Shown here: in pieces, positions 2,366 through 22,254 of the stretch
How the letters are laid out: every line of letters starts with the position of its first letter
How positions within the stretch are numbered: position 1 is the first letter of the stretch
From: a virus
DNA length: 31,369 nucleotides
IMG/VR virus record: IMGVR_UViG_3300030101_003517
Location: 1-31,369 of that record
Direction: 5' to 3' (one strand)
The notes under the pieces: generated by a model
The model's database searches: none
Told to the model about the DNA's origin: nothing
The model's input: the letters and a program-made list of their open reading frames with translations, nothing else
Program-made: the position numbers and the translations under genes

Positions 2366-4390
2366 ATGGCTATTCCAATAAAAATCTTGGCCGGACACGA
2401 TGGTGAAATAGCAGTAGATTTAGAGGCACAAAGTATTGATATGGTGATAGACAGAAACATATCTGCTTTCCCAACCCCTAATAATTTATTGAAACGCATA
2501 GCAGTAGATACTAACATACCTAGAGTTACAATGGAAATCAATGGTATACTAACAGATGATGAAGGTATAGATGTGACACGGGCTTCGGGCGTGGAAGATT
2601 TGGTTTCTGTAACTCCTATGAGAACTTTGATTAATTTCGGGAGCCTCATGCCCACTGAACCTAATTCAAACTTTACACCTGTTAAAAGAGCGCTTGGAAC
2701 TAGACAGCCAAGCATACCTACTCTTGAATTGTCTGTGAAAGAATCTTTTGTTAAAAACTCAATTAATACTATTGAAAATTTAGATGTTCCCGCAAATGAA
2801 AATTTCAACGCCGTGGCCTCGGCCAACGCTGCAACAAGGATAAACACTAATTTGAAATTTACTGGAGCACATAGTGTAGGTGCAACAGGCGCTCTTGCAG
2901 TCAGTGCTAGTATCTCAGGAGTGTCTACTAGTGCAAGTGTTCTCATTAGTAAGGACGATAGGATAGTGAAAAACACAGGAGAATTGATTGGCATAGTGCA
3001 ATCAGTAACTGATACAACTGTTACGTTTACTGCGGGCATCGCTCACTCCATAAGTGCGAATGACAAACTTTTCGCTAGCGCTAAGTGTTTTAATCACAGA
3101 AATGAATTTTTAGGTTATGCTATTAATTTGAAATATAACTTTGGCGGCGGAATACCAGTCCCATCAGTAGAGTCAGTTGATTTAACACTGGATAGAAAAA
3201 TTGAAAGTAACATATTAAGGAGGACTAAAATAACCCTTAACAAAAGTAATGATTCCTTAGAAAATTTATTGCATCATAATTGTATAAAGATAATTCCTTC
3301 TTATTGGCTGGAGGACCCTAGTCGTGGCCCAACTGGTAGTGACCCACGAAGCGATATAGCGTTTAGTAATAATGTGTATCCTAAATACGGTATTAAGTTC
3401 ATATTTGACGCTACCAAAACACCTGACATTGCCGGAGGTAGCGATACGCCCACACTAAATGATACTGGCGTTCAAATATTTGAAAGAACTTCTTTTCATC
3501 AAGGTTATTGCACTCCGCCAGTTCTTGATGCTGCGTATAGGGATTTAGAGATATTGATACCAATCAAAGGTATAACTTCTTTACCCGACAATCAAAGTCC
3601 GGCTGAAGGGTTGGCCTTACTATTATCACAAGCGCTTGCTCTACCGACTATTTTCACAAAGACCGTAAAAAATGATTCGTTTACACTAAATCCAACTGGC
3701 ACATCTACTCTAGCGGCTACATTCAACGTGACCCGCAATAATTCTATTGTATTGATTGAGCAAACATACAAGCCCCAAACGCCAGTAGAGCATCCTGAAA
3801 TCTTCAATGATAGGCTAAAAGAAACTGTAATCATTCAAGCATTTAATTCTATAAGTGCGTTTTCTTCTTTCGGAACTAAGTCTGCTGGAGATAAAGCGCA
3901 GGATTTGATTGGTTTGATTTCCAACTCTAGCACTAACACAGGTGATTTATTCAAAGGTATTCAAATACCATACGATAGTCTAATCACAAGTTCAGGAGTT
4001 ACAGGGGTTGCTCGCAATTTCTTTTTGACTTTTGGAGAAATACCCGCATCAGAAAAAACTTCTCTGAGCAACACTCGTGCAGCATCGGACACTATGTTAG
4101 GGCTGCAATTGACCGGAGATGCTGGCGGAAATAAAACTGACAGAAGCGATAATGAAAAGTCACTTTTAGAAGAATGGTTTGGTAGTGCAGGTGAGGCAAT
4201 TGAATCGTTAGTAGGCTTTGTAACAACGGCTATATCTGATATTTTTATAACACTAAAGAGTGACGCTCATGGTAATGATGGCGGAATACGCATCATACCT
4301 GAAAAACTTCATGTGCGCTATGATGCTGGGAACAACTACTACGCATACAGTTTACTTCTAGTAGCGACAGACTTTGTGATAGGTGTATGA
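2366..4390 (+). CDS. Virion (tail/baseplate-type) protein, paralogue of the preceding gene
   Basis: This 674-aa protein is probably a tail or baseplate component. It starts at ATG nine bases after the previous stop, behind a purine-rich GAGATGATGA. It shares with the upstream protein the EINGIL-[TA]-DD motif (here about residue 55), a middle segment (SYWLEDPS against FWVEESGA; ILIPIKG against ILPIKNA) and the C-terminal GDKAQDLIG, GIQIPY and RNFFLT motifs, so the pair arose by duplication. The roughly 55 residues before the shared N-terminal motif show what the truncated upstream gene is probably missing. Residues about 168-241 form a beta module that also occurs in the giant protein and the hub-like protein. 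No transmembrane segment or enzyme motif was seen. Its place between a LamG protein and a giant adhesin-like gene supports a virion role. Confidence 0.8.
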   Translation: MAIPIKILAGHDGEIAVDLEAQSIDMVIDRNISAFPTPNNLLKRIAVDTNIPRVTMEINGILTDDEGIDVTRASGVEDLVSVTPMRTLINFGSLMPTEPNSNFTPVKRALGTRQPSIPTLELSVKESFVKNSINTIENLDVPANENFNAVASANAATRINTNLKFTGAHSVGATGALAVSASISGVSTSASVLISKDDRIVKNTGELIGIVQSVTDTTVTFTAGIAHSISANDKLFASAKCFNHRNEFLGYAINLKYNFGGGIPVPSVESVDLTLDRKIESNILRRTKITLNKSNDSLENLLHHNCIKIIPSYWLEDPSRGPTGSDPRSDIAFSNNVYPKYGIKFIFDATKTPDIAGGSDTPTLNDTGVQIFERTSFHQGYCTPPVLDAAYRDLEILIPIKGITSLPDNQSPAEGLALLLSQALALPTIFTKTVKNDSFTLNPTGTSTLAATFNVTRNNSIVLIEQTYKPQTPVEHPEIFNDRLKETVIIQAFNSISAFSSFGTKSAGDKAQDLIGLISNSSTNTGDLFKGIQIPYDSLITSSGVTGVARNFFLTFGEIPASEKTSLSNTRAASDTMLGLQLTGDAGGNKTDRSDNEKSLLEEWFGSAGEAIESLVGFVTTAISDIFITLKSDAHGNDGGIRIIPEKLHVRYDAGNNYYAYSLLLVATDFVIGV

Positions 4391-4391
4391 T

Positions 4392-7300
4392 ATGACGTTA
4401 ACAATTGACCCCGGATTTGGAATAAGATTCAACGGTATAAGCGATAGCATATTAGTCCCTGTAAACACTAAACTTATTCACGGAGTTCAAACCGAAGAAC
4501 GTAGAGGATTACCTAAAGCAATAAATTCGTTTACGATAGAAAGTTGGTTTATACCGGATTGTGGAGGAGTAATATTTGAGCAAGAAAATGTCATGCGATT
4601 GACAGTGGGTAGCCCTAGCAGCCCTGCACCCGCCACGTTTGAAGTTCGATTAAGAAATCCTGCAAGTGGTAGAGACGCAGTTTATACTTTATCAACTGCT
4701 AAACCAATTACCAAAGTAAATGGTAGAATTGCATACTATGAAGGTATACAGTTCCCGGTAACAGATTCTCTACATGGTTCTTATTTAGCAACTGATGTTG
4801 ATAGAAACGATGTCACTGCCTTTAATGACGGGGCTAGAGAATTGTTAAATGTAACTGTGATGTTTGATAGAAGAACAATAAGTATGTTCGTGAATGGTGA
4901 TTTAGCCGTATCTCAGGAACTAGAGGAAGAACATGAGTTAGTGACTCAACAGAATAGCATTTATCTTGGAGGTAGAGGCGGTGATTTCAGAGGAACATTA
5001 GAAGCCATACATTGGTCAAAAGGTGCGTTAACTTCAGGCTATCAACAGTATGCTCCTATGAAAAGTGACAACACTATTGGACTTTGGAGGTTTGAAGAAC
5101 CAGTGAATCCTATAACGCTGATTACTACAACTCCTTCTATCTCTGCATCTACTTCGGCTACTTCTTCGATTAATATAGGGTCATCTGCGGCACAGTCTCT
5201 GATAGACGAACTCAGTGGTCAAAGTGGACTTACGTCAATTGATTTCACAGCCAGTCCTTATAGTGGAGGCAGTTACAGCGTCAAGGTTCAATCCGCTTCT
5301 TCATCTGCTACTGTAAGTATACCAAAGGTGCCCTACAATATTTTAGTCAACCCGTTAGGGTATAGTCAAACCACTGGTAAGCCTACTAATAAATCTCCTG
5401 AAAGACTAAGGTTGATGTCGGCAGATTCCAGTGCTGGAACTATAACGGTTGAGTCTATACACCTTGATTTTGCATCTAACGCTAGCAACGGCAGGAGAGG
5501 TGTTTTGTCTAACCACGATGCTGGTAGATTTGTAATTATCACAGGCGATTGTATAATTGATACTGGTAACGGTAACGAATTTCAACCTTATGGCACAGGC
5601 ACACAGTTTTCTCAAAGGCAGGGTCAAGTGATTATAGATGAAAGTGACTTTGTTAATAATGGAATAATGTTTTCTCAGAGCATGGCAATAGACAGTCATG
5701 AATACAACAAATTCTCTGCAAGTTCTGCAAATATGGGCTCTCAGTTTTTAGCAGGTCATTCGGGTAGACACACTCTGAATCATGTAACTAGCCATCCGTT
5801 CATGGGCGTGTTACCTCCCACTGAGAGTCACGTAGTAGAGAAAAAGTTAGACGTAGGCAGTGACGTAATATCGGCTTCATTTCCTTCACAATTTTCTGAC
5901 ATTAGGTCAACTGTCCCTATGAATAGTATAGTTTCCAGTTATGACACTAACGGTAACATCAAAATCAAATCTGTAACGAACCGTGCTGAAATAACTTCTG
6001 TGGTAGAAAATGGAATGTCAGACATCGACGATACGCAAAGAGGCATTTTGGCAGTAGGCGCACTCAATTTTAATGTAGAACCTTTCCTAATAAGGTCTTT
6101 ATCTTCTAATAATGAACTTGATTCTTCTAAACATGCTATTCCTTCTACTAGAAATAGAATAGCAATACTATCTGTTCCTGATTTAGCGACTTACAATTAC
6201 GCTCCGTTCGTGCAATTGCATTACAATGCAGTTGATTTAGACGGAAGTCAGTTTAGGATAGGGGCTACTTCTCGTTTAACGACTAACATAAGTGGTGGTA
6301 ATACTGTTTTAACTTTACAGAGCGTTAAATCGTTTGGATTCGACGGTGAACTTATACCAGCCTCGCTGATAGATATAAACGGCACACCTGCTTCTAGTTT
6401 AAGCGATAACACCGCAGAAATAAATTACTCTGCAAAAACACTGACATTTTCAGCAGCGGCTGACTCTGCTTTCAATACACTGGCTGTAAGTGGTAACATA
6501 GTCAAAAAGTCCGATACCGGGGCTAAGATTTTAGTAACTGATACGCTACCTAAAGTGAGCACGATAGTGACAGGTAGCACGTCCATACTGGACTTGATTA
6601 GAACAGCGTTAGAGGCTAGCCCGTTAGAAATATTCTCTCCCGGTGCAGTTATAGAATTTGACAAACCTGAAATGTTCGGGCTTTCTGACGGTGATTTAGA
6701 AGGAGAAAGTAGCGAAGGGCAGGTAGCCGAAAGTGTCCTTAACAGAGATTTGTCACCTGAAAATTATCTACCGTTAACATCGACTGATTCTCCACAAACT
6801 ACTCCTCAAGCAATTTCGTTGGCTACTTCCGAATTAGTCGAAAGAGGCTCGGTCCTCAATAGAATTTTAATTAGGAGCCATAAGACTAGCATAGGTGACT
6901 TTGAAGAAAATGCAGGCGTTACACTCCAAAAGTCTACTAATGGTATAAGACCTAGAAGTGGTTTAAAGTTGAATAATGGTTCGGGATATGCGGCTTCTAC
7001 CACTGGCGCTATGACAGTTGACGGAGTAGACGCTACTACGGTAATCAATGTAGGAAGTTCTATCTTCAAAGCAAATGGTAAAAACTTAGGAACTGTAACT
7101 GCGGTTACAAGCACTTCTGTTACTGTGGGAGCAGGAACCTCTGATGCTTTAGTAGATGATGAAGAAATATTCACACAGCCTCAAATGGTAGGTAAAGGAA
7201 CTATAAACCAAAGCAGTTGTGTCCATGAATATTTTGACATAATCGAACACAATAGCAATGAGAAAAAGGTCAAGTTAATTATACAACCTAGCGATAATAA

Positions 7301-10300
7301 TCGCTTCAATTTAGGTAGAAGGCTATCAGCATCTGCTAGTTTTGCTAATCGTATAAGTATAGAGAACTTAGTCTCTCGTGGCAGAATCGTTTCTTTTGCT
7401 GATGGCGACGAGGGTAGCACTACCATGAGAGCGCACGGAGTTATAGGTGACTTAGCATCATCCAGTGTTTATGTAAAGGGCTCTGCCTCACCCGACTCTC
7501 ATATCGTGAAAGAAATAATGCCGGGAGCGCCCGTAGTCACTATGACACTAGGTGGCCCCGGACAAGGTGCCATCAATACCAAAGACACTTGGACTCCAAG
7601 TCCGTTATCTAGGATGGCTTGGAATACTCGTAGAGATTGTCAGACTCGTGTAGAATCTACAACCAGCACTACGATAACAGTTGCACCGCTGAACAATCAA
7701 TCTACTGATTTGCAATCTTGGGGCACATATTGTTTTCCTAAAGAAGGTAGAGTGTATTTAGAAATAGAGGGCAATCAGGGCGAGCAAAGACGGTTTGCAA
7801 GTGCCGCTTATGCCAGTAAAACAGGTGATGTTTTCACTTTCACGTCTAGTCCCCCGCTAGGAAGCGGCACTCTTATAGCGGCTGATGGTAGTGAGGTAGA
7901 CACATTTGCCAACTGGATAACATCGACTGGTATAACCGCAGGTAGCGTATTGCACGTTGATGACAAATTTGGAGAAGAATCGATGTGCAATGATGGCACT
8001 ACTATTAACGACAGGTTGTTCCAAACACTTGACACTGTTCAACACGACTATCAATTAGGAACGCAGTATGCAAGCACTCGTGCTTTGGTAGAGATACCGC
8101 TGTTTAACGATTTCTTTTTCGATAATCCTGACAAAGGTATTTTCCCCGGCCCTGATAACAGTATGAAGTTGCACGTAGACGCTACACAAACAGCGCATTC
8201 TTGGAGTCCGAATCCTGTCGGAAGAAGGCCCGAATCTATATCGCCACAGGACCCTGAAGTATTTAGTGCGTTTTCATTTACTATACAAAACGAAACTCAT
8301 CGCACAGGAACAAAGGTAACCCAACCTTACGATTCAAGTAACAACCGAATATATGTAGAAGATATAGGTATATTTCCGAAGGCTTCTGCCCCTCCCATAA
8401 CAGTGGCTAGTTTAGGAGGCTCTGCTAGATACAGAAGGGCTTTCTTAGGTAACGGAGAGTGGGTAGTTTACGACGGTCTACACACCGACGGTTACTTAGA
8501 TTTGGCAGGTTCTTCATCTAGTGGATATATAGCCAGTGCCAACTTCTTTCGTGATTTAAAAGTGGGTGCTCATATATTCCCAGCACCGGGGTATCAAGAT
8601 ATGAGTTATTCAGGTATTGCTGATAACCCCTCTCTAATTAGTGCTGGTTATGAAAATAGACGTTCGTTTTACTTTGACCGTTCTAATGTAATGACTCAAG
8701 GTGGTAATACTGATTACGGGTTAAAGCAATATGTTAGTGCGATAGAACTGAGAGCCGGGCCAACAATAAACCCACATCTCCCTAAGATTATCAGTAAGCG
8801 GCCAAGAGCGAGGGTGATTTCTGTAACCGGAAGTCCTGCAACTTCTTTAACTTTAGACGATGCTAGTCTGTTTCCAATCAGTTCACCTGACTCGGATTAC
8901 AAATTCAGAGTAGCGTTTAGAAATGCAAGTGGCGCTGTCAACCGTGGATTTTACGATAACAGGGCAAATAACGTGCTCACCATAGTCAGTCCTGATAGTG
9001 GCTTCACTCCATCTGTTGGAGATGAGATATATGTCGAAGATTTACATGCCACTGCTTCAGCCACCTACCCTAAAGTGAAAGAGACTTTCTTGAACAGAGC
9101 ATGGTCGCATCCTTATTGCAACGGTGGTCTAAGGCAAGGTGATACGATTTGGATGAACATGCACTACACTAACCCTCATGCCATAGAAGGTTTGTTTTGT
9201 AAAAGTAGAGGCACATTAAACGAGGCTGAAGTAGCCACTGTATTCAACGGTGGAGAGGGCTCTTTTGACCTCAATCCTAGAAATAGCATACCCATGGAAA
9301 ATTTCTTGATTGGAGATACTTGTGTAGAAACGGCTCAGAACTTGATGCAGCATATCAACAAAACAGTATCGTTAAATTATGATGCGATTGGTTTGACAGA
9401 AACTCCTCCAACAATCGCTTACTTAGACCCTTACCAGTGCACTGAAAATTTTGCTAGAGTTTTATTATATGATGTAGAACATGACCGTGAGTTCATTGCA
9501 TTCCAAGATATACACATGCAAGTTCAATCTAGTCCAGCAGCGGCTAGTATTGGTAAAGAAGATACTGGAAAGACCGGATTTATCAACAACTCAGTTACAG
9601 GTTCAGGCTCTTTGCTAGATGTAGCGGCAGGTTTCCCTACTGAAAACAAAAGGCTCAACACTAGTGAGAAATCAGATTTCATAGAGGCATCTTACGCTCA
9701 CAAGTCTACTTGGAACTCAAACGTGACGAATGTAAACTTAGAGCATGTTGTAGGAGGAGTTGACGATACTGCTACTAATGGTTACACAGACCGCACTAAC
9801 AACGCTGTCACTCTAAGTGGCAGTGCCTTGACTAAGCATCAGGAGATAGATTCATCAAGTCGAGAACAGTCTACGTTCTTTGATACACCTGACGGAACTA
9901 GAGTTATACCTGCATTCTTAGCAATGAAAGGTATAAGGAACAGTAAATTGACTTTAGATGATACTAGACTGAACAACCTTGACCAATGGACAGATATGGA
10001 TTTCGTCAGAAGGTTGACGATTGATATGGGAGAAGTCCGCCTTAAAGATGGAGTTACCAACATAGAGTCAGCCGCTAGAGAAGTAGTAAGAATGATTAAT
10101 CAAGCGGGTGCTAAAAACGGTAAGACTCATGCCAAAAAACCTGCTGACCAATATTTAGGTAGAAGTGATAACTTTGACCCCTCCTCTCCTCATAAAAATT
10201 CAGACTTTGCTGCCACAGCATCTACGCACGACCCCTCCCCATTTTGGGATGTAAAGAAAGCATTCTCTAGCCATGACAGAGGCACTCACATGGGCTACGT

Positions 10301-13300
10301 CCGTGCTCACCTTGGTAGAGTGGTAAAGGATGAAGAAGGCGTAGAAGAAGGATTCTCTATTGTAATACACTCTACCGTTCCGGGTGCCGCAGGTCGTAAC
10401 CTTTGCACATGGCTAGACAATAGTAAATCACAGACTACTTACAAGCCCGAATACTTGATTGGGCACGGTGGTAGATTTAGGAATTATTGGTGCCAACCTG
10501 ATGAAATTACTGGAGAAAATATGCACCCGGCTCCTATGCCAATCAATAGATTCGGTAGACCATTTGCTCCTATAACTACTCTGAAAGAATACTTACCGCC
10601 TGAAAGTCCTGACGATGCCTTGTTGAACAATGTCAATTTAGGTGCGGACATAGTAAATAGTTTTGGAGTCATCTCTACTTCTAACACAGAAATGGTAAGT
10701 GGTAGAAATTCTAATACGGTATTGAACGAATCGTTTGAGACAAAAAGTCCCGCATCTGTCCTAGTAGATGGTCTTAGAGTGGGAACTAAAGCGAAGGCTA
10801 GAATCAATTTCGGAGGAATGACTCAGGCCGGAATACCCGGATGGGCCCCTGATGTTTCTAAATGGGGATTCGATAATGATGGGACTACTAACGCAGCAAG
10901 ATATGGCAATGCTAGTAACGCAGCAACCGCAATGACTAACACAACTGAGCAGGCTAGTAGTGACGGTTACATACCGGCAGATGATATGAAAGCAGAAAAC
11001 ATTGGTCAAAGTCCAATTTATGGATTGAGATTTACGGACCATAGAGGTGATAATCACACTATAAGATTACTTTACAGACGGTTTGGAGAAAACTTTGCTA
11101 GTGACAACACTTACTTACCATCTACGCTTGATGAGGAGATAATCATACACTTTGATGATAGAGACGTAGGTCAAGGTGGGTTTACGATTGGTCGTCACAT
11201 GGTGGGAGTGGGAGAGGTATGTGGTGAAAAAACAGGTGGTAACCCCATAGAGTTTAAGGGTAATCTTTGGAACAATTACCCTTCTCCGATAGTAGGTGCT
11301 AAAGTGACCACTAGTTATTCAAGTGGGACTATGACTGTCACGTTTCACGAACCTTATGGTAGTGGTGGTAGTGGGACAGTTCCTTCTACATTACAAACGC
11401 ATCCTGATATTTTGGGATACTTAGGTTTCCCTGAAACGGGCATGTTTCAGTTATCTAAGCATGGAACTGGAGGCTCAAACCACCAAGGGTTACCTTTCTA
11501 CTACACTAGCAGAACGCACGAAAATCACAGCGGAACTCACAAATTCTTTGGAGTGATAGGAGGAGCGGGAAGTCATGCAAATGGTGATTGGCTTTTGAGT
11601 CCAAGAATAAACTTCACATGCTTACTAACTGATGAGGTCATCGCTGCCGCAGTAGAGCACGCAATCAATTTACCTAGTAACGATAGTGATGTCACATTCG
11701 ACTGCACTGATATGTTCGCACCCGATGGGAGAACTCTAAAAGAATGGAACGTCAGTTCTGAGGCTATCCGTATAGTTACAAGGGCCGATAAGAAAACTCC
11801 TATGAGCAAATTCTTTGAGGCTAAAGTTACTAAAGACTGGGGGTTGCAAAATGGAGCAGCAACAGATGCAGCGGTAAGCGGACATCACACTGGAGGATTG
11901 AGTGACAGTGAGAAAGATGCGGGCACTAGATTAGATGTAGGATACATACCTAAAACGGTGCTACATGTAGATACTAAATTCCGTGGAACTAACGCTAACA
12001 CAGCCACTCCTGTATTAGTCGATAGTCAAAATAACATAGTGGACATTACTACTTGGCAAAGAAATCTAAGAGGAGAAAATTTCACTGACGTAGCCGGTGA
12101 CCATATCATACCAAGAGTGGATTCACCTTGCGTCGAAGTAGATTCTTTTTCTGACCCTGACATTAGTGTGGCATCAAACGAATCTTGGGCTTTACTAGGC
12201 AAGCCTGCTAGTGTTGCTAATGGTTGGGGAGAGCCGTTTGTAGTATGGTATAGTGATACTTCTTGGGCAAGGGTTAGAAGTAAAGTCGGAACTACTTCTG
12301 AGATAACGGTTAGTATAGAACATAAGAGTGCAAATCCTGTCGCATTTGCTAACCCTGTGCAACATGATATATTGTGGAAAAGAAATGCTAGTGCTTACAA
12401 GTTTTTAGATGTAGACGGAGTTCGTAGGGCGGGGAGTAAGAACTCTAGTCCTTTCCTTTACTTTAGAGGTGGGCGAGATAGCCCTGACCATTGGGTGCCT
12501 CTTTATTTCGGAGGTGGTTTTAGTGGTGCAGTTGTAGATATAAACGACGGGACTCAAAACGACTACTCTGAGTTTTACACTCATCCTTATTCTTCCGGCC
12601 CCACAGGTAGCGCAGGCTTCCAAAACATAGGAGAGGTGGCGGGCTCATATGCATTATTAGACGCAAATGCTATGCTAGCCATGTTCCCCGGCACACCTTA
12701 TCTTGACCAGCATAGAGGGCAAAACAACCCACCTTATTTCAACCAAGACGCTATATTGCCATTTGATATGGCTAAGGGTTCCAATTCAAAGGTCACAGGG
12801 TTAGTTTATACCGACGGTCAGAACACAGTATCTGTCAACATACCTAGTCCAATCGTCATAAGATTTGCCCATCCTAATGCGAGATACAGCCATACGGGTG
12901 ATAGCGATGACCAAACTACATACATGATATTCGGTCCCGGTCAAGCGTTCCCTCATAACACTGCTTCGTTTGAACCACAAGGAAAAGACATAATTACAGC
13001 AGGTAATGGTTATAGTGCAGTTCCTATCTATATAGACGGCGACCCCGGCTCAGATACTTTGCTTCCTAATCAACTGGCTAACGGTGACATAGCAGAGCAC
13101 AGTGGCCTTAACAGGTTATCTGAGGCTTCTGCTCATTTACCTATGACTACTTTTTTCCAACAAAATAAACGCTCAGGCTACAACTATGTTATGAACTGGG
13201 AGCCTGCCAAAGGATTACCGTCTACTACGGCATCTCTTGCCGGTAAAGTCTACTCCCAAGCCTATAATCATGCATTCTATTACGAAGGCACACCGGGAAC

Positions 13301-16300
13301 CACTGCTAATTTACCTAAGCACTATCATCCTTTCAATGAAATATTCAGCGATATTGGCGGTCAAATAATAGGAACTGGAGCATTCCCTAAGACAAGAAAA
13401 TCAGCAGTAATATGGCACATGGATGGAGGCTATCACCCCGGCGGTCATTTCTTAGATGACCACGTAAATAAGAATCCAAAACAAACTGTTGCTAACGCTA
13501 GAGTGATAAACGGTAGTGGTGCTAAGAAAAACACTACTGTATTCAGACCATGTGGTCTATTATCAAAAGCCTACAAAACAAAGTATGGAGGAGATGGCTC
13601 TACTCAAGATGTAGATGAGAACATAGTAATTGTAGACGCTACTAGATGCCAAAATGCGGAAGAATTGGGCGCTGTAATCAGCGGTGCTATCAATACCTTC
13701 CCCGGCAAAAACCCATTGAAGGCGATAGGTGGGACGTTCATGCCTAGTATGCAGAACGCTCACAAGCAAGATAGGTATGGTTGGGTTCAAGTAGAAATTG
13801 ATTCTTATCAAGCAGAAAACAGTGGGAGCCCAGCCGCTTTGACTGTAAACAGTGTTGCTACCACGTTGCCTGAATATGGGTGGTTGAGAGTGAGTAACGG
13901 TGTTGAGTCAGGCTACGCACCGTATATATCCACCAGTATATCTGCTCCTCACACGGTATTTACGCTTGGTAAAAATGCCACAACTTCAGACACTAATATT
14001 GTGAATCCTGAAACTAGGTCCGCCATAGCACCTGATGCTTCTTTTAAGGCTTTTATTTGGACTAAGGCTGGGACTCATAGATTCAACAACACAACAACTA
14101 GTTCAAGGGACCACATTTGTCAAGTGCATTACAGTGGATTTGTAGACGCAGTAGATAGAACAAAGCCGGTAGGGGCAGTGGGTTGGGCTGGAGAAGCCTA
14201 CTCATACTTCAATTCTTACGAAGCCGATGCCATAGGTGGAGACATTCATCCAGCAGGATTAGGTGCTTGGCATCCTTTCTTAGGTTTCAATCCTTATGGT
14301 GCCGCTGAGACTTGTTTATCAGCCTCCTCTCCAGTGGGTTCAGTTGAAACTCCACTCGCCGCTTTCTATGCAGATTACTGTGTGAACGGATTGTCCAGTA
14401 GACATTTGATTGCTATAACTCATGAAAGTGAGTTACCCTTAATCGCTAAGGCCGATAGAGACGGTATAACTTGTGCGGGTGATTGGCTAAAGGTAGCAGA
14501 AACTGGAACTATAACTCATGCTGGAACTATTGCTTGGGACACTAGCAAAGTGCACAATAAAAGTAGGTATGTGGGACCCGCTACTGCCGGTCCTCATGTT
14601 GAAGCACAAATGCATAGTGGATATTCAAGACCTTCCGCTGCTAGCGATTATCCTAATTCAGGCTCTGCACCAACAGATGGGCAATTGCATAGAGCAATAC
14701 AAAGTGGTGACATGGTTAGGTCGAACGCATGTAGATTTGCCACAGGAGATTTGTTTTGGGATGAAAGTGTAGTCAAACAATCTGCATTCCATGAAGATGC
14801 TGGCACTTACGGTGTAGAGTGTGTGGGTGTGAGTAACCATGACCATTACTTAGACGTAACCGCTACTCCGCATACTGGTTTATTTGGCTATTACGGAGGT
14901 AGACATCCTTCTCGTAATTTTTTACCTGAACATGTAGTTTGGAAAAGAATGGATGGCGGCGGTCTGACTATGCCAGCAGTCAATGCTAGAGGGCTAGGTA
15001 TGGTGCCTTGGGTAAAGCGTAAAGATGGTGGTAGTTACAAGTTAGTAGGCGAAAAGGTGTTAGGTAATGTCAGATTTAGTTTTGAGACAACTAATGCTGC
15101 TATGTTCCCTGTAATACAAGCACAAGAACTGAGTCATCCTCAGTTAGCCGAACAGCATCCAATGAGAGTCACTAACGCTTTACTTATACCAAACGAACAC
15201 ATGCAATTTGAAAGCGTGCAAGTAATAGATGACACAGGTCAAGAACATAGACTAGAGGGAGGTAGCCCTCTAGGAACTGTGATATTAGATTTCAGACACA
15301 TTAGTGATAGAGAAATAGAAGGTTTAGCGCCAGCGTTAGCGGGCGCTGGTGTATCTCCTAACTTGAAAATAAGGTTACCCAACCCTGACGAAATACCCGG
15401 TAACATAGTAGTTAGGTCAGGATTTGATAGAATACAGTCGTATCAAAACGAGACAGTTGGTTCAGGAGGATTGCAGCACCCTGCTCAACAGGTGTCTAAT
15501 ATTAGAGAAATGTTCAACAATGATTACAGCGGCCCTCGTCTTTGGCCTACTTGGGAGAACAACGGGTGGGAACATTTGAGTCAAGATGGCTCTGATATTT
15601 CTACGACTAAAAGTAATAGTCGTTTGAAATTCCCAGCATCTACCAACGAAGGATGGTCAGATTACACTGACAATGCGCCACTAGATTCGGCTTACGAGCC
15701 TCATGATAGAAGTCTATACTTCCATGTTACACGGATGGGTGTAAGTATGACTCACCGTTATGATGTAGATGAATTGTCATTCAGCGGATATGACGAAACT
15801 AACAGTGAGATTGACGTTACCTCTACTCCTGAGTCAGGCACTTGGACTGATACTAGCGAGCAGAGTGGAGGTAGGTATTTCCTAAGAGTGTATGACCCTA
15901 CAACTGACAAAGGAGTATTGGCCTCATACACAGGGGTAGGCACGAATAAATTCACAGGAGTGGTCATATCTCCCGATTTCAAGTCCTTTATCAACGGTAA
16001 GACTGGATTGAAAGTAGTTCCTAGTTACTACATGCCTGCTGGCAGCACTCGCATGTTTGCAGCAAGAAGATTACGTGACCATAGTGAATATAGTGGCGCA
16101 AGTCCTGATATGAAAAAGATAGATTGGTTTTCGATGTTTGGTAATTTACCAACGTCTACCGGGGCTATGGTAAATCCGTCACAAGCCCATATAGCACTGT
16201 CTAAGCCCAAGATGACACCTATGCCTATACCTCGTATGGGTCACCATTACATTACACCTACAATGGCACTCATGCCCGGACATTATGCACATCCTGCATA

Positions 16301-19300
16301 CCAAAGAATATACGATTTGAATACTGCTTGTAAGAGTTCAAATCATGAACCAATGTCTAATAGTTTGGTAGGAACTTTAGAAACAGCAAGGACTAGTGGC
16401 ACTAATACTTTAGATAATCAAGGGTTTGGGCGTGACCCACTTGTATGGTTCTCTACACCAACAGCAGCATTCTCTCCTAGCGACATACATGGTGGTGCGT
16501 TTACTTTATTGACAGAAACTAAAGTCAAGTATGAAGGATATGGTATAGCGGCTAGTTCAGGTAGTAATGCAGGGACAATAAACGCTTCAGGCGGACACAC
16601 CTTGGTATTAGAGGCGGCTGCATCTTACACACTTAACAACCATTTCCCTGACCCACTAGAAGTAGGCGCTTATCAAATCATCATTCAACCTAATTTGTTT
16701 AAACAGCAGTTGAAAGGATTTCACGCAAACGGACCTGCTACTAATGTTCCTGACGGTAGTGTAGTAGAACTAACTGGGCAACAAGTCAATACTGTGATTG
16801 CAATAGAGAAAAACGTCAATACAAGAGGGGCTTATGCTCTTATTTTAGCAGAGGCTACAATGGCAGATGTTCGGGGTTGTGAAGTAATATTGAACGAAGT
16901 TATACTGGACATAGAACCTGACGCAGGTAGTCAATTCACTAACCTCCCACCACTTGCTTTATACAATCCGTTAGGAGTTCAAGAAAGCACAAGCCCTTCC
17001 TTTACAAGGAGAAGTCTACCGTATAGACCGGGAATGTTCGTTAGTTCAACGCCGGGCAGAACTCTAACTATACCTTGGTGGGGTATACTTCACAAAGACG
17101 GCGCTAGTGCCACAGGTGCTAGTAAGTTCAGACACCTTGAATGGCATAAGCCCGACAATTACTACGAACTTTGTAGAGCAAACTTCGGATGTGTGGGGGC
17201 GCAGATTACTCTAGCAGGTTACCCTACATCTTTCCTCGACATTTACGAAACTCATAAGCGACTAAGAAGTATGAATCCAAATTGTGTAGTTTTGTCTGAC
17301 AATCAAAGTGGTAGCACTATAACAGTTGACAATAACGACTTATTCCCTGTCACTCCGTATTACGGAGAAGTGTTAGAATACACCAAAGATGGTGTAAGAT
17401 ATACCGCTACTTATTCAAATAGAACTGGAACTTTAGCACACGCTACTCTAGGGGCTTCTACTACTTTCTCAGGTGTATCAGGTAGTGCAGCGTTTTGGGC
17501 CAATCTGAATGGTGACGCTGACGCAGGAGACAATACAATTCTTAGATTAAGCAGACCTTATGACAATGGTGTATCTGACGACTTGTTCACTGACCTCAAG
17601 ACTAGTATAATGACGAGAAACTTAGAGGACCTCGCTAACGGAACTAGAGACACTAACTCGCTTAATACAGCAGATTCTTTCTTGTGTATGTGGCATCCTA
17701 ACTTAGGTAGACCGTTTACTTGGTATAGCGATACGGCAGATGGGGGAAGCAGGGCCTTCTATACTAACGCTGGCACAGCCGATACACCTGTTGACCAAAA
17801 GGGATACAACCACATACCTGAACACTTTGAAACTATACACTATCAAGATTACAACTATGTTGCGAGCAAAGGTCCATTTGGCTTAGCGATGAAATGGGTG
17901 GTGCCACCGCACGACCATGATAATAATGCAGGCACTGCATTAAGTCATGACGGCACCTTACAAACCGCTGCACAAATCGATGCCAAAGTAGATGGCTCAG
18001 GGACCCTCAACCATCAGGGAGGAACTATTAGTTCAAATAAATACAACTTCAACGGGTTTTGGCCGGGCGGCTCACATGGTGGAGGCGCAGTCAGTAGATT
18101 AGAGTCATACGGACACTCTTTGATTGGTTGGGGTAGTGACACATTTGGAATGGATTGCGAGACTTATCAAGACTCAACTGGCGTTGCTACTCTAAGTCTA
18201 CCTAACGACAGGAACAGGTGCTTTGGTTACCGCATGGCTGTTAGGCAGTTGTATAATCGACCTCGGTGGTCACCTTACATTCGTGGTTGGTTAGAAGTCG
18301 CTAACAGTAATGCTATGTTAGGTTATTACCATGGACCACTTATACAACATGATTCTAAAACAAATGGATGGGACTATGTAGGTTCGGATGGCACACAAAG
18401 TGACAAAACATTTGACGCTATGTATGTAGGTATTCTTGAAAGAATAACACAAGTGTCTAGTTTATTAGGTCAAGACCAAATAGGTAGACAAGTAAGATAC
18501 AGTGACGGAAGAAGAATGACTGGCTCATTTGGTTGCCCTGTAAGAACTTTAAGAAACGCTTCAACCACTACACGCCTTTATCCTAATGACGAGGTAGGTC
18601 AAGGTATAGAGGAATTAGCAAGAGCACACCGTCACTACATGGTAGATTGGTGGGGCAATACTCGTGGTGAAGATGTCAGGCGTTTCCCCGTTAGAGGATT
18701 CGGTTTGCGCCCATGCTGGGACCCCGAAGATGCATACAAAGACACCAACGTGACTCACAGACCAGCAGCGCATGATTTGTTTGGTGGAGACGGGACAGAC
18801 AGATATAGTGGATATGATAATTCTGCGAACAATGCTGCAAGTAATATGGGAACCTCTGACTGGTTTAATCCAGCCAGTGCTCTGAGAGTAGGTGACCGAG
18901 GCGATGGTCGTGGAGTTAGATGGCCTACTGTATTCAATGAAAGTTTACTCATGGCAGTCAGTGAAAATCATGATGCCACAGGACTAGTCCTATCTCATAG
19001 CACAGCAGAACCTATACTAGGACAGGGATTGGTTAGACCAAGCAACGATGTTCTACAAAGTGGAGAAATAGAACGAGGTATAAGTGACAGAGTAGATTTG
19101 AACTCAGATGACGGTTTACTAAAACCTAGTGCACATGTAGGAGAAGCGACTGAAACAGTAAACGCTGACACAAGAGGAGCAGAGCCTGTATCGAGAAATG
19201 ATGTCAGATTAGGGTTAGATGTAGATACAATGGCAGAATTAAACGATGGTGTCAGTCGTGAATATGTAGTTATGTCAACAGAAGCAGCGAGTCTGCATAC

Positions 19301-20093
19301 AGACAGAGAAGTCGGTCAAAGAACTAACATTAGAGGAGCATACAATGTAGGTAGTCGCACTCTCAAAGATTTAGACATGACTGCTTTGAATTGGAGTGCT
19401 CAACCAGTCACAGGTGTGGTTAAGCACTCTAACGCTCATGCAATGTGGTCATTAGGTGGAACTTATGTCATGGAGTGGAGTAAGCACGCTGGTAACTTGG
19501 ATGTGAAAGGTTGGGGTAAGACCAGCGTTTCTTCTTCATCTAATCCCTACCAAGACGCTAATCATGACCCTATATTTGAAAACATAAACTACACGGATAG
19601 CACTATACAATTCCTATACAGACCAACACACATTCTTGATTACAAACATAGTCAAATGTTTAGGGCATATACTACTTTGAAAGGAAGCAGCCCCCAAGAA
19701 AACGCCAACTTTTACAGAGCGACAGCAGGCGGTAAATATGGACTATTTACAAGCGATGCACCATCTGCACGCACAGGAACTCCGAGTGCACCACCTTATG
19801 CTCCAGTATACACAATAGTGCCCGGTTCAAGTGTAACAGCCCCCGATAGCCAAGGGCCTAAAATACAAGGTGTAGATGTGACTGGCTATGACAAAACTGA
19901 CATACGCTCTCCAGTAGCAAGAGTAGTTATGTCAGAGAACACACTTGAGCACTTTAGAGCAGACGCTAGTAGAAAATCAGTAGATGATGGAGAGGGTGAT
20001 TATAGTGTCCAACCAAGGTATAGTCAGACACTTCATCCGAAAGGCAGTAAGGGCGATGCATCTTATAACACAGGGGACCATAGCGGGGAGTGA
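4392..20093 (+). CDS. Giant (about 5,233 aa) virion protein, putative adhesin or tail fibre/tail-surface protein
   Basis: One uninterrupted frame of 15.7 kb, half of the window. I prefer ATG 4392, one base after the upstream stop; an in-frame GTG at 4383 would add three residues. Residues 1 to about 240 form a LamG/concanavalin-like domain (GIRFNG, FTIESWF, RTISMFVNGD, IYLGGRGGDFRGTLEAIHWS, GLWRFEEP), followed by a Ser/Thr-rich stretch to about residue 310. Recurrent small beta modules lie near residues 864-932, 1087-1161, 1474-1555, 3145-3203 and 4298-4366. Two resemble the T-[IL]-T-[VL]-D-x-x-x-LFP repeats common in phage tail proteins. The rest is beta- and loop-rich and high in Gly, Asn, Ser, Trp and His; the last ~75 residues are polar. 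I saw no signal peptide, transmembrane helix, protease or lysozyme motif. Position among tail genes and size favour a host-contact or long tail structure; a tape measure is unlikely because coiled-coil helix is lacking. Confidence 0.85.
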   Translation: MTLTIDPGFGIRFNGISDSILVPVNTKLIHGVQTEERRGLPKAINSFTIESWFIPDCGGVIFEQENVMRLTVGSPSSPAPATFEVRLRNPASGRDAVYTLSTAKPITKVNGRIAYYEGIQFPVTDSLHGSYLATDVDRNDVTAFNDGARELLNVTVMFDRRTISMFVNGDLAVSQELEEEHELVTQQNSIYLGGRGGDFRGTLEAIHWSKGALTSGYQQYAPMKSDNTIGLWRFEEPVNPITLITTTPSISASTSATSSINIGSSAAQSLIDELSGQSGLTSIDFTASPYSGGSYSVKVQSASSSATVSIPKVPYNILVNPLGYSQTTGKPTNKSPERLRLMSADSSAGTITVESIHLDFASNASNGRRGVLSNHDAGRFVIITGDCIIDTGNGNEFQPYGTGTQFSQRQGQVIIDESDFVNNGIMFSQSMAIDSHEYNKFSASSANMGSQFLAGHSGRHTLNHVTSHPFMGVLPPTESHVVEKKLDVGSDVISASFPSQFSDIRSTVPMNSIVSSYDTNGNIKIKSVTNRAEITSVVENGMSDIDDTQRGILAVGALNFNVEPFLIRSLSSNNELDSSKHAIPSTRNRIAILSVPDLATYNYAPFVQLHYNAVDLDGSQFRIGATSRLTTNISGGNTVLTLQSVKSFGFDGELIPASLIDINGTPASSLSDNTAEINYSAKTLTFSAAADSAFNTLAVSGNIVKKSDTGAKILVTDTLPKVSTIVTGSTSILDLIRTALEASPLEIFSPGAVIEFDKPEMFGLSDGDLEGESSEGQVAESVLNRDLSPENYLPLTSTDSPQTTPQAISLATSELVERGSVLNRILIRSHKTSIGDFEENAGVTLQKSTNGIRPRSGLKLNNGSGYAASTTGAMTVDGVDATTVINVGSSIFKANGKNLGTVTAVTSTSVTVGAGTSDALVDDEEIFTQPQMVGKGTINQSSCVHEYFDIIEHNSNEKKVKLIIQPSDNNRFNLGRRLSASASFANRISIENLVSRGRIVSFADGDEGSTTMRAHGVIGDLASSSVYVKGSASPDSHIVKEIMPGAPVVTMTLGGPGQGAINTKDTWTPSPLSRMAWNTRRDCQTRVESTTSTTITVAPLNNQSTDLQSWGTYCFPKEGRVYLEIEGNQGEQRRFASAAYASKTGDVFTFTSSPPLGSGTLIAADGSEVDTFANWITSTGITAGSVLHVDDKFGEESMCNDGTTINDRLFQTLDTVQHDYQLGTQYASTRALVEIPLFNDFFFDNPDKGIFPGPDNSMKLHVDATQTAHSWSPNPVGRRPESISPQDPEVFSAFSFTIQNETHRTGTKVTQPYDSSNNRIYVEDIGIFPKASAPPITVASLGGSARYRRAFLGNGEWVVYDGLHTDGYLDLAGSSSSGYIASANFFRDLKVGAHIFPAPGYQDMSYSGIADNPSLISAGYENRRSFYFDRSNVMTQGGNTDYGLKQYVSAIELRAGPTINPHLPKIISKRPRARVISVTGSPATSLTLDDASLFPISSPDSDYKFRVAFRNASGAVNRGFYDNRANNVLTIVSPDSGFTPSVGDEIYVEDLHATASATYPKVKETFLNRAWSHPYCNGGLRQGDTIWMNMHYTNPHAIEGLFCKSRGTLNEAEVATVFNGGEGSFDLNPRNSIPMENFLIGDTCVETAQNLMQHINKTVSLNYDAIGLTETPPTIAYLDPYQCTENFARVLLYDVEHDREFIAFQDIHMQVQSSPAAASIGKEDTGKTGFINNSVTGSGSLLDVAAGFPTENKRLNTSEKSDFIEASYAHKSTWNSNVTNVNLEHVVGGVDDTATNGYTDRTNNAVTLSGSALTKHQEIDSSSREQSTFFDTPDGTRVIPAFLAMKGIRNSKLTLDDTRLNNLDQWTDMDFVRRLTIDMGEVRLKDGVTNIESAAREVVRMINQAGAKNGKTHAKKPADQYLGRSDNFDPSSPHKNSDFAATASTHDPSPFWDVKKAFSSHDRGTHMGYVRAHLGRVVKDEEGVEEGFSIVIHSTVPGAAGRNLCTWLDNSKSQTTYKPEYLIGHGGRFRNYWCQPDEITGENMHPAPMPINRFGRPFAPITTLKEYLPPESPDDALLNNVNLGADIVNSFGVISTSNTEMVSGRNSNTVLNESFETKSPASVLVDGLRVGTKAKARINFGGMTQAGIPGWAPDVSKWGFDNDGTTNAARYGNASNAATAMTNTTEQASSDGYIPADDMKAENIGQSPIYGLRFTDHRGDNHTIRLLYRRFGENFASDNTYLPSTLDEEIIIHFDDRDVGQGGFTIGRHMVGVGEVCGEKTGGNPIEFKGNLWNNYPSPIVGAKVTTSYSSGTMTVTFHEPYGSGGSGTVPSTLQTHPDILGYLGFPETGMFQLSKHGTGGSNHQGLPFYYTSRTHENHSGTHKFFGVIGGAGSHANGDWLLSPRINFTCLLTDEVIAAAVEHAINLPSNDSDVTFDCTDMFAPDGRTLKEWNVSSEAIRIVTRADKKTPMSKFFEAKVTKDWGLQNGAATDAAVSGHHTGGLSDSEKDAGTRLDVGYIPKTVLHVDTKFRGTNANTATPVLVDSQNNIVDITTWQRNLRGENFTDVAGDHIIPRVDSPCVEVDSFSDPDISVASNESWALLGKPASVANGWGEPFVVWYSDTSWARVRSKVGTTSEITVSIEHKSANPVAFANPVQHDILWKRNASAYKFLDVDGVRRAGSKNSSPFLYFRGGRDSPDHWVPLYFGGGFSGAVVDINDGTQNDYSEFYTHPYSSGPTGSAGFQNIGEVAGSYALLDANAMLAMFPGTPYLDQHRGQNNPPYFNQDAILPFDMAKGSNSKVTGLVYTDGQNTVSVNIPSPIVIRFAHPNARYSHTGDSDDQTTYMIFGPGQAFPHNTASFEPQGKDIITAGNGYSAVPIYIDGDPGSDTLLPNQLANGDIAEHSGLNRLSEASAHLPMTTFFQQNKRSGYNYVMNWEPAKGLPSTTASLAGKVYSQAYNHAFYYEGTPGTTANLPKHYHPFNEIFSDIGGQIIGTGAFPKTRKSAVIWHMDGGYHPGGHFLDDHVNKNPKQTVANARVINGSGAKKNTTVFRPCGLLSKAYKTKYGGDGSTQDVDENIVIVDATRCQNAEELGAVISGAINTFPGKNPLKAIGGTFMPSMQNAHKQDRYGWVQVEIDSYQAENSGSPAALTVNSVATTLPEYGWLRVSNGVESGYAPYISTSISAPHTVFTLGKNATTSDTNIVNPETRSAIAPDASFKAFIWTKAGTHRFNNTTTSSRDHICQVHYSGFVDAVDRTKPVGAVGWAGEAYSYFNSYEADAIGGDIHPAGLGAWHPFLGFNPYGAAETCLSASSPVGSVETPLAAFYADYCVNGLSSRHLIAITHESELPLIAKADRDGITCAGDWLKVAETGTITHAGTIAWDTSKVHNKSRYVGPATAGPHVEAQMHSGYSRPSAASDYPNSGSAPTDGQLHRAIQSGDMVRSNACRFATGDLFWDESVVKQSAFHEDAGTYGVECVGVSNHDHYLDVTATPHTGLFGYYGGRHPSRNFLPEHVVWKRMDGGGLTMPAVNARGLGMVPWVKRKDGGSYKLVGEKVLGNVRFSFETTNAAMFPVIQAQELSHPQLAEQHPMRVTNALLIPNEHMQFESVQVIDDTGQEHRLEGGSPLGTVILDFRHISDREIEGLAPALAGAGVSPNLKIRLPNPDEIPGNIVVRSGFDRIQSYQNETVGSGGLQHPAQQVSNIREMFNNDYSGPRLWPTWENNGWEHLSQDGSDISTTKSNSRLKFPASTNEGWSDYTDNAPLDSAYEPHDRSLYFHVTRMGVSMTHRYDVDELSFSGYDETNSEIDVTSTPESGTWTDTSEQSGGRYFLRVYDPTTDKGVLASYTGVGTNKFTGVVISPDFKSFINGKTGLKVVPSYYMPAGSTRMFAARRLRDHSEYSGASPDMKKIDWFSMFGNLPTSTGAMVNPSQAHIALSKPKMTPMPIPRMGHHYITPTMALMPGHYAHPAYQRIYDLNTACKSSNHEPMSNSLVGTLETARTSGTNTLDNQGFGRDPLVWFSTPTAAFSPSDIHGGAFTLLTETKVKYEGYGIAASSGSNAGTINASGGHTLVLEAAASYTLNNHFPDPLEVGAYQIIIQPNLFKQQLKGFHANGPATNVPDGSVVELTGQQVNTVIAIEKNVNTRGAYALILAEATMADVRGCEVILNEVILDIEPDAGSQFTNLPPLALYNPLGVQESTSPSFTRRSLPYRPGMFVSSTPGRTLTIPWWGILHKDGASATGASKFRHLEWHKPDNYYELCRANFGCVGAQITLAGYPTSFLDIYETHKRLRSMNPNCVVLSDNQSGSTITVDNNDLFPVTPYYGEVLEYTKDGVRYTATYSNRTGTLAHATLGASTTFSGVSGSAAFWANLNGDADAGDNTILRLSRPYDNGVSDDLFTDLKTSIMTRNLEDLANGTRDTNSLNTADSFLCMWHPNLGRPFTWYSDTADGGSRAFYTNAGTADTPVDQKGYNHIPEHFETIHYQDYNYVASKGPFGLAMKWVVPPHDHDNNAGTALSHDGTLQTAAQIDAKVDGSGTLNHQGGTISSNKYNFNGFWPGGSHGGGAVSRLESYGHSLIGWGSDTFGMDCETYQDSTGVATLSLPNDRNRCFGYRMAVRQLYNRPRWSPYIRGWLEVANSNAMLGYYHGPLIQHDSKTNGWDYVGSDGTQSDKTFDAMYVGILERITQVSSLLGQDQIGRQVRYSDGRRMTGSFGCPVRTLRNASTTTRLYPNDEVGQGIEELARAHRHYMVDWWGNTRGEDVRRFPVRGFGLRPCWDPEDAYKDTNVTHRPAAHDLFGGDGTDRYSGYDNSANNAASNMGTSDWFNPASALRVGDRGDGRGVRWPTVFNESLLMAVSENHDATGLVLSHSTAEPILGQGLVRPSNDVLQSGEIERGISDRVDLNSDDGLLKPSAHVGEATETVNADTRGAEPVSRNDVRLGLDVDTMAELNDGVSREYVVMSTEAASLHTDREVGQRTNIRGAYNVGSRTLKDLDMTALNWSAQPVTGVVKHSNAHAMWSLGGTYVMEWSKHAGNLDVKGWGKTSVSSSSNPYQDANHDPIFENINYTDSTIQFLYRPTHILDYKHSQMFRAYTTLKGSSPQENANFYRATAGGKYGLFTSDAPSARTGTPSAPPYAPVYTIVPGSSVTAPDSQGPKIQGVDVTGYDKTDIRSPVARVVMSENTLEHFRADASRKSVDDGEGDYSVQPRYSQTLHPKGSKGDASYNTGDHSGE

Positions 20094-20098
20094 GTGAC

Positions 20099-20596
20099 AT
20101 GATACCGATGGATGAGGCTTGGATGATACTAAAGCAATCCCAGTCACATAAGTTTGATTTCTTAGGTTACAGTTACAGCCAAGAGCCTTTTGGTATAGTC
20201 ACAATAAAGTCTTCAAAAGGAGAAAGGAAAATACCATTTTACCAACGAAGTGGCGGAGGCTCGGCATACGACTTTGAAACCGGACAGACTGAGTATGAAG
20301 AAGGTGAGCCGCAAGCAGGTCAATGGGTTCCTTTTCTTGGATACGATACTGACATGCATTATGGCGATTCAGCACAACCTTATCTGATTAAGCCATATCA
20401 TGTTTTTAGAAAAGACAAAAATGTGCACAAAAGATACGCTGTTCCTCAACTCAAAGAAGCGGGAGAATGGTTAGACCGTAATCATGATGTGAAACCCTTT
20501 GACCCTAACACACATGATGAAATTGATTGGGAAGATGCTAATCGGATGATGTTAGAACAAGGGGCGCATTTAGCAGAACCTTACAGGGGAGATTAA
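20099..20596 (+). CDS. Conserved-looking hypothetical protein in the tail module
   Basis: A 165-aa soluble protein I do not recognise. ATG 20099 is preferred over GTG 20090 because GGGGAG (20085-20090) sits eight bases upstream, good Shine-Dalgarno spacing; the GTG would overlap that site. The protein is acidic and rich in Trp, Tyr and His, with a Gly-rich turn (RSGGGSAYDF) and a PYLIKPYHVFRKDK segment in the middle, and an EW/DW-rich C-terminus. There are no cysteine knuckles, signal peptide or membrane helix. It lies directly after the giant gene's stop and just before the hub-like gene. It may be a small tail connector, assembly factor or chaperone for its neighbours, but nothing in the sequence decides this. 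Confidence 0.75.
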   Translation: MIPMDEAWMILKQSQSHKFDFLGYSYSQEPFGIVTIKSSKGERKIPFYQRSGGGSAYDFETGQTEYEEGEPQAGQWVPFLGYDTDMHYGDSAQPYLIKPYHVFRKDKNVHKRYAVPQLKEAGEWLDRNHDVKPFDPNTHDEIDWEDANRMMLEQGAHLAEPYRGD

Positions 20597-20598: not shown

Positions 20599-22254
20599 AT
20601 GGCGCTAGGTAAGAATCTCGCAACTGGTCGCTTTGATGCCGACCAAAACGCTGTAATGAAAGTAGTGCGTAAGCCACGATTTGTAGACAACGCTGTGAGA
20701 CATGGAGAATACACCAAAGTAAAAGCAGGTTTTGCAGTCAACAAACCAACTGGAAGCGACTTCATACCTACCACTGAAAAAAGATACAAACTGATTGAAG
20801 AAGAAGATACTATTCGTTTACTTCACAATCCTACAAGTAGCGTAACTTATGAAGGAGCGTTATTTTTTGACAATGATAAAGTAACAACTACGAGCACCAT
20901 ACCGGCTTTGGTAGTAGGTGCAGACAACCATAATCAGTTGCTTGCTTTGTCAGAAATAAAAGACGCTCCCAAAGGGACTAGATACGGGTTAGAGAACATG
21001 AAAGGGCGAACTTTACAGGACATAGGGTTCACCGATAAAGTCATCCATTTCGCTCAGAAAGTAGGAGTAGGCTTGCGAACTTCTGATTTGGCTGCTAGGG
21101 TTGCTAAGGCTAATACTAGTTCTATCAATGGCGTTAGAGCAAATTCACCTAGTTCTACATTTATCGCTCAAGATTTCTATGGTGTAGAGGCATTCAGTGC
21201 TCTAAGGTATTTAGCCAAACATGATGGTTACAGTCCTAAAGGAGATAGGTTTGGCAACCTCTGCTATCTACCTCAGAATCATATAGAACGAGAATATTTA
21301 CTTACAGAAAGTAGAGTGCTAGGTGGCACTACTGATGACAGTAGTGAAACTACTCCAAACAGAGTCGTAGTAAGAGGAAAACCGAGGGCTAACAATCACA
21401 ACAATGTTATACAAGTTGATGACTTTGGCCGTCAAGAAACAGGCATAGTAGAAGTGCCCGGAGGTATACACGCTCCAACCGCAGTAACTAAAGCGAGTGC
21501 TAAATTGATAGGGCAAAGAATGTTGAAGATTGCCAAAAACGCATCAGGTTCACGTAAGTTATCTGACGTTTTAGCAGTCACTCACGTTCATCCGGGTGAT
21601 ATGGTATCTTACAAATCAAGAACCGATAACGAAAGATATGTTGTCTTAGGAACAACATTAGACTTAAACTCAAGAATAAGCAAGTTACATGTCAATTCAG
21701 TCGATGTAACTTTAGAAGATGTGTTACAGAGGTTTCAAGAAATCGATGTGAGTGGTAATCTTAACGATAATCAAGAGAGAAACAGACAGTTTGCTACTGA
21801 AGAATTTTCTACGTCTTTTGGTTTCAAGGTCAAAGTGTCATATCAAATATCTGAGAGAGTTGATATGAACAGAGGTGTCGGTTACACTCTAGGCATGACA
21901 AGGCGTAATTCAATCAACGGTAGCCTCGTGTTAGAAAGCACTGGTGTGTTTATCAATAATGGCGGTGGTCATGCCATAGGCACTACCAGTTTCACTACTG
22001 ATGGGACTGGTGCTAACTCTGTATTCACTGTTGACAATCAACCAGTATTCACTACTAACGGTAACAAATTAGGTCATATCAACGCAAGTTCTGTTGGACC
22101 TAATACGGTAGTTTTGAAATCTGCTAGCGTGCACCCTATCTTAGACAACGAAGAACTGTTTATTTTATCTACACAGGCATTCCCCGAAACACGTAATCAG
22201 TCTCTGAAGATTGGTATGGTGCATAGTAGTTATCTGAAAACAAGGAGAGGATGA
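20599..22254 (+). CDS. Baseplate hub-like tail protein
   Basis: A 551-aa protein probably located at the tail tip. It starts at ATG 20599, behind GGGAGATTAAGG two bases after the upstream stop. Residues about 147-230 (LRTSDLAARVAKAN, then SALRYLAKHDGYSPKGDRFG) resemble the hub domain of phage gpD/gp27-type proteins, in which a short helix addressing a local residue 'LA..+G' precedes a description of the next layer. It continues with RVVVRGKPRANN and VIQVDD (about 255-275), AKLIGQRMLKIAK, then VHPGDMVSYKSRTDNERYVVLG, the usual 'PGD.V......Y.V' barrel strand order of hub proteins. Residues about 455-528 carry the beta module also seen in the giant protein and the 674-aa protein (LDNEELF end). 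The hub call rests on motif order and gene position, not on a search; a different baseplate role is possible. Confidence 0.75.
   Translation: MALGKNLATGRFDADQNAVMKVVRKPRFVDNAVRHGEYTKVKAGFAVNKPTGSDFIPTTEKRYKLIEEEDTIRLLHNPTSSVTYEGALFFDNDKVTTTSTIPALVVGADNHNQLLALSEIKDAPKGTRYGLENMKGRTLQDIGFTDKVIHFAQKVGVGLRTSDLAARVAKANTSSINGVRANSPSSTFIAQDFYGVEAFSALRYLAKHDGYSPKGDRFGNLCYLPQNHIEREYLLTESRVLGGTTDDSSETTPNRVVVRGKPRANNHNNVIQVDDFGRQETGIVEVPGGIHAPTAVTKASAKLIGQRMLKIAKNASGSRKLSDVLAVTHVHPGDMVSYKSRTDNERYVVLGTTLDLNSRISKLHVNSVDVTLEDVLQRFQEIDVSGNLNDNQERNRQFATEEFSTSFGFKVKVSYQISERVDMNRGVGYTLGMTRRNSINGSLVLESTGVFINNGGGHAIGTTSFTTDGTGANSVFTVDNQPVFTTNGNKLGHINASSVGPNTVVLKSASVHPILDNEELFILSTQAFPETRNQSLKIGMVHSSYLKTRRG
22243..22250 (+). 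promoter_or_regulatory. Shine-Dalgarno site selecting a TTG start
   Basis: AGGAGAGG ends five bases before TTG 22256 (eight from GGAG). With no nearby in-frame ATG it decides the start of the 118-aa tail-type gene. Confidence 0.6.

Follow-up and report, generated by a model that had tools for sequence, protein, structure and literature searches.

HFTV1, an archaeal tailed virus, has a trimeric connector (gp41), hub (gp44) and fibres (gp42), with a carbohydrate-binding domain predicted in the hub and the fibre gene lying between those of the connector and the hub (PMC12494034). Magroviruses form one clade with Druskaviridae on the basis of their major capsid proteins (MCPs) (Liu et al, PMC8651126), and have been described as a group that may rank third in abundance among the viruses of the marine plankton (PMC10160649). 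No magrovirus is in culture, and so their attachment is uncharacterised.

The window described here, by which we mean the whole 31,369-nucleotide stretch of viral DNA that was analysed, has in the slot matching that of the HFTV1 fibre gene (PMC12494034) a frame for a single giant protein. The original prediction, made from the DNA alone, took it for a very large adhesin or tail-surface structure. We consider it reasonably likely that it is a conserved tail-tip or baseplate scaffold that displays exchangeable lectin-type modules.

Results

An intact frame of 5,233 codons

The tail-module genes of the window that are referred to below are as follows.

2 to 2356, plus strand: LamG839, a tail protein that is variable except at its conserved ends and contains a Laminin_G_3 domain; its 5' end lies outside the window
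2366 to 4390, plus strand: p674, the most variable neighbour, with a dN/dS of 0.43 in its N-terminal half
4392 to 20093, plus strand: the giant frame, 5,233 aa, predicted mass 567 kDa; would form the conserved scaffold of a tail tip
20599 to 22254, plus strand: p551, hub-like, with a weak match to the annotated baseplate hub of HVTV-2
22256 to 22612, plus strand: p118, a small conserved tail-module protein
22609 to 23802, plus strand: p397, the last large tail-module gene, fibre-like by eye but without a family match

The giant frame is free of stops from the ATG at 4392, which lies one base past the stop of the preceding gene, in agreement with the single uninterrupted gene of 15.7 kb and about 5,230 residues originally proposed. 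An in-frame GTG at 4383 is a possible alternative start; the orthologue consensus at the N-terminus, M(S/T)LxIDPG, begins at the ATG at 4392 and so the start first proposed is right. Twenty-two relatives with complete frames, of 5,162-5,727 aa and 44-98% identity, align with the giant from end to end, and one other relative reaches 6,140 aa. Against its near-twin in contig G001 the dN/dS is 0.10, with values for 500-aa blocks of 0.02-0.22 and none above this. The gene is genuine, and selection on it is purifying. A chance frame or an assembly chimera, the latter raised in the original prediction as what might undo it, is ruled out by the many independent contigs, the 22 relatives aligned over their full length and the low dN/dS. 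Two contigs (G005 and G028) have the frame broken, at positions that differ between them. Tandem Repeats Finder detected no tandem repeats in the giant, and when its profile was compared with itself by hhalign no duplication stood out convincingly, the best pair having a probability of 37%.

The gene does occupy half of the window. As the window is a fragment, and relatives reach 95-109 kb, it would take up only about 15% of a genome of about 100 kb, and the earlier remark that such a length is rare in a virus of this size mistook the 31-kb fragment for the genome.

Distribution

Scans with different parts of the giant recovered 185-218 contigs, with residues 1101-2200 encoded by 218 and the N-terminal 1,150 aa by 196; the C-terminal 1,233 aa are encoded by 88. 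A scan with the MCP recovered at least 545. The giant was found in 21 of the 26 MCP-bearing contigs tested, the other five ending soon after the MCP gene, with too little sequence downstream for it to be expected. The gene would seem to belong to the core set of the tested clade. A tblastn search of the INPHARED phage records with each half of the protein gave no match, and we found no mention of it in the literature searched, the Magrovirales texts PMC10768690 and PMC12999244 included. A search of genome contigs returned just three with fragments of the gene (L359, L360 and L361), in bacterial metagenome-assembled genomes labelled Cytophagaceae and Maricaulis; these are probably binning errors.

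Genome context

The wider gene order can be seen in G001, a contig of 80 kb whose giant is 98% identical to that of the window. The head part runs TerL, portal, a 2,009-aa protein, S78 protease, HK97-type MCP, connector-like protein and terminator-like protein, followed in the tail part by the tail tube, the tail-chaperone slot, the tape-measure slot, which is occupied by a coiled-coil-type protein of 159 aa, and then LamG839 and p674. Then come the giant, p551, p118, p397 and p84, and finally the opposed replication genes, which include a thermosome, an ERCC4 nuclease, PolB and an AAA clamp-loader-like ATPase. LamG839 and p674 are paralogous. Matches in Druskaviridae exist for the MCP, connector, terminator and tube, and this family has the nearest MCP among the records compared, a set that does not include magrovirus references. 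With the giant among tail genes and these Druskaviridae-like proteins alongside, the setting originally proposed, the virion or tail module of an archaeal tailed virus, is borne out. The giant is encoded near the hub-like p551, as would be expected of a baseplate protein in Caudoviricetes, though the hub match is weak: it comes from hmmsearch (E 0.0011 against the annotated HVTV-2 hub), with no confirmation by hhalign.

From its gene content the virus would seem to be a magrovirus-like head-tailed virus of marine archaea, since both the size of the relatives, 95-109 kb, and the archaeal genes agree with Magrovirales. Placing it in group A (Apasviridae) is a guess, made because a sub-threshold DNA-ligase match beside the protease recalls a group A magrovirus contig (PMC7318539).

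Several other features of these genomes are worth recording. The 2,009-aa protein (G001, L109:127-6156) is a second giant located between the portal and the prohead protease; it diverges fast (30-45% identity) and has the sub-threshold match, to an ATP-dependent DNA ligase, near its C-terminus. In Druskaviridae the same slot holds a protein annotated as 'zeta toxin/ADP-ribosyltransferase'. The gene in the chaperone slot of G001, p121 (L109:15129-15660), is followed by an overlapping second frame, read by eye, as expected for a programmed frameshift. In the window p168 (20090-20596) lies between the giant and the hub gene; it is absent from this position in the 98%-identical G001 and in the other genomes compared, which suggests a recent gain or loss. 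The thermosome is a full-length group II chaperonin (24050-25546 of the window, minus strand; Pfam E 1e-127; relatives 41-82% identical) and could help in folding giant proteins. A short motif, P(M/I)(D/N/E)xAWxxL(M/K)K, for example PMDEAWMILK, is shared by numerous proteins of these viruses that are otherwise unrelated, and often lies close to one end of the chain, whereas about 0.06 occurrences would be expected in G001 by shuffling. It is present at the N-terminus of p168, in L110 (162-512, 3703-4668, 9493-10857, where it occurs twice, and 12782-14377) and in L102, L103, L107 and L108, and could be a capsid-targeting or assembly tag.

Predicted fold of the giant

Three parts of the protein were considered.

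4392 to 5111, plus strand: residues 1-240, a LamG/ConA-like jelly roll (weak Pfam match; AlphaFold2 model and Foldseek)
4392 to 7841, plus strand: residues 1-1150, compact and all-beta in a model with pLDDT 84 and pTM 0.81
16992 to 20090, plus strand: residues 4201-5233, the C-terminal third, among the most conserved parts, with a model pLDDT of 41

The model of residues 1-1150 contains about 40% strand and 9% helix and begins with the jelly roll, which is modelled with a pLDDT of about 90 and has a Foldseek probability of 1.00 to the LamG domains of PAPP-A and neurexin. The LamG-like N-terminus that was originally proposed is therefore upheld by the predicted fold, while the Laminin_G_3 match itself (16 bits, E 0.014) falls under the curated Pfam cut-off of 27.6 bits. 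Matches to the binding domains of clostridial neurotoxins reflect only the common ConA-like jelly roll, and Foldseek found no named fold beyond it in residues 1-1150. The composition of the model agrees with the earlier view that the protein is not a helical tape measure, and no enzyme domain was found in the giant, also as first suggested. Of the recurring beta modules that had been noted, it is mobile inserts that are seen rather than internal duplications.

Segment-wise structure prediction was thus confident at the N-terminus and failed for residues 4201-5233, for which AlphaFold2 gave no usable model despite their high conservation. This may point to an intertwined or partner-dependent fold, or simply to a shallow alignment. 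Profile searches with five segments of the giant gave nothing significant in the PDB, and the weak matches to antibodies and enzymes were taken as chance. The scaffold has no match in the PDB, Pfam, PHROGs, HVTV-2 or HCTV-16, and homology to a known baseplate protein was not found in these.

Conservation and exchangeable cassettes

When segments of the giant were compared across seven relatives they were conserved to about the same degree as the tail tube and distinctly more so than LamG839 and p674; the C-terminus was again among the most conserved parts. With a dN/dS of 0.10 the scaffold is not the hypervariable, diversifying sequence that would mark a host-range adhesin, and only the inserts vary. 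Because of this conservation the backbone looks structural, judging from the alignments, and LamG839 and p674 look like fast-changing tail proteins. The idea of a very large adhesin or tail-surface structure is then supported as to the tail module and the lectin-type modules, but the backbone itself does not evolve as a fast-changing adhesin would. Contact with the host surface would more plausibly be the task of the exchangeable inserts, and perhaps also of LamG839 and p674.

The suggested comparison of lengths among relatives was informative, as the differences are due to domain-sized inserts at fixed sites. The mobile elements, with cassettes counted from alignments of 65 non-redundant relatives, are as follows.

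7002 to 7181, plus strand: mobile beta module of about 60 aa, residues 871-930, also in p674, p551 and p208 of G001
17907 to 17912, plus strand: insert site 1, which follows residue 4506 and is unoccupied in the window; a propeller-like insert of about 300 aa in 9/65 relatives
19515 to 19520, plus strand: insert site 2, which follows residue 5042 and is likewise unoccupied in the window; a LamG insert of about 240 aa in 8/65 relatives

The small module thus occurs in four different proteins, one of them encoded beside the capsid gene, and in extra copies in the giants of some relatives. Site 1 carries an insert of any kind in 11 of the 65 relatives, the nine long ones being propeller-like. This description comes from one sub-threshold Pfam match (24.4 bits against a propeller-family cut-off of 90, in one of the nine members) and from visible repeats of D-G-T/S-K, which resemble blades. 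The site 2 insert is a Laminin_G_3 domain, matched by seven of eight members with a best score of 38.7 bits against the cut-off of 27.6.

The identity between inserts is not coupled to that between the scaffolds that carry them. The correlation is 0.15 at site 1 (n=9) and -0.07 at site 2 (n=8), whereas a control segment of the scaffold from the same viruses gives 0.98 and 0.93, respectively. Pairs with scaffolds 60-63% identical have propeller-like inserts that are 78-85% identical, so fast divergence is no explanation, and pairs with scaffolds 96-98% identical have inserts only 30-44% identical. Horizontal exchange of cassettes would be the simplest cause of this uncoupling, though the samples are small (nine and eight inserts); at the LamG site most of the case comes from the unlike inserts on near-identical scaffolds.

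Length of the tail

The protein in the tape-measure slot has 159 aa in G001 (L109:15854-16333), and its counterparts in five relatives, all with complete frames, have 136-160 aa, compared with 480 and 620 aa for the tape measures of the Druskaviridae HVTV-2 and HCTV-16. Scaling from HFTV1, in which 341 aa correspond to 56 nm, suggests a tail of about 26 nm if this protein is the tape measure. The tip would then rival the tube in mass, and a tail so short would make an unusual virion shape, recognisable by microscopy.

Discussion

We propose that one very long chain forms a mostly beta scaffold between the tail tube and the hub-like p551. On it would be displayed the N-terminal LamG domain, the small mobile beta module and, at the two fixed sites, LamG or propeller-like cassettes, all of lectin type. 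The scaffold would evolve slowly because it must assemble, while gain, loss and trading of cassettes between viruses would change the surface glycans or proteins that the tip touches. Presence in the virion, location at the tip, glycan binding and an effect on host range are all inferred from the features above, and by analogy with HFTV1 there may be three or six copies. A more specific form of the proposal, in which this one chain takes the place of a multi-protein baseplate to give a stubby tail with a multi-megadalton tip of 567-kDa protein and fixed docking sites for cassettes, is put forward tentatively.

The giant could instead be a true adhesin or tail fibre, an extended protein that binds a receptor and serves mainly to recognise the host, as originally suggested. 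The LamG N-terminus, the LamG and propeller-like inserts and the gene slot shared with the HFTV1 fibre would all suit this. We nevertheless think it unlikely, though less so than the other alternatives, given that the whole backbone, and the C-terminus especially, is conserved like the tail tube, that the first 1,150 residues are modelled as compact rather than fibrous and that the repeats typical of long fibres are lacking.

Tail proteins are not usual substrates of S78 proteases. Cleavage of the giant as a polyprotein into separate virion proteins, for instance by the S78 prohead protease that these viruses encode, would mean an unusual tail substrate, and no repeated junction motif was seen; the frame is in two pieces in two contigs, but the breaks differ in position and look like sequence errors, making this quite improbable. 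We give a similarly small chance to a capsid decoration, a turret or head fibre binding glycans in the manner of the HFTV1 turret protein: HFTV1 turrets do have glycan-binding domains and the small mobile module recurs in the protein encoded beside the MCP, yet the giant sits among the tail genes, downstream of the tube and the tape-measure slot. Length is all that speaks for a tape measure or an assembly artefact, together a very remote prospect, the artefact being already refuted by intact frames in more than 20 independent contigs and the tape measure nearly so by the strand-rich model, the lack of any hydrophobic segment above KD 1.3 and a longest G/P-free run of 38 residues.

In the tested clade all contigs of sufficient length have the giant, and it offers a sequence-level marker, readable from metagenomes, of candidate receptor-binding variation. 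Its conserved frame with swappable lectin-type cassettes makes a clear structural target, and the trading of cassettes could serve related viruses as a means of tuning their adhesion.

The genome resembles those of Magrovirales (Aoguangviridae and Apasviridae), which are about 90-110 kb and in which the replication and morphogenesis modules are opposed and archaeal replication genes and a chaperonin are present (PMC10768690, PMC12999244). HVTV-2 (MZ334523) and HCTV-16 (MZ334524) have a homologous MCP, connector, terminator and tube in the same order, and HVTV-2 also has a LamG tail protein, but neither encodes a homologue of the giant. HFTV1 is likewise an archaeal tailed virus with large tail-tip genes between tape measure and hub and a carbohydrate-binding domain at the tip; there, however, separate proteins of ordinary size are used, while the giant has no sequence match to any solved structure. 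Large structural proteins of marine phage virions, phrog_18802 (3,007 positions), phrog_697 (2,079) and phrog_10356, have the inserted modules in common with it (LamG and G-x-G-Y repeats), though not the scaffold. The best viral match by structure, BFVD A0A1B1IU10, has the same fold over about 1,200 columns (TM 0.71, 28% identity) and, on the strength of the models, would be a distant homologue of the giant that is already deposited.
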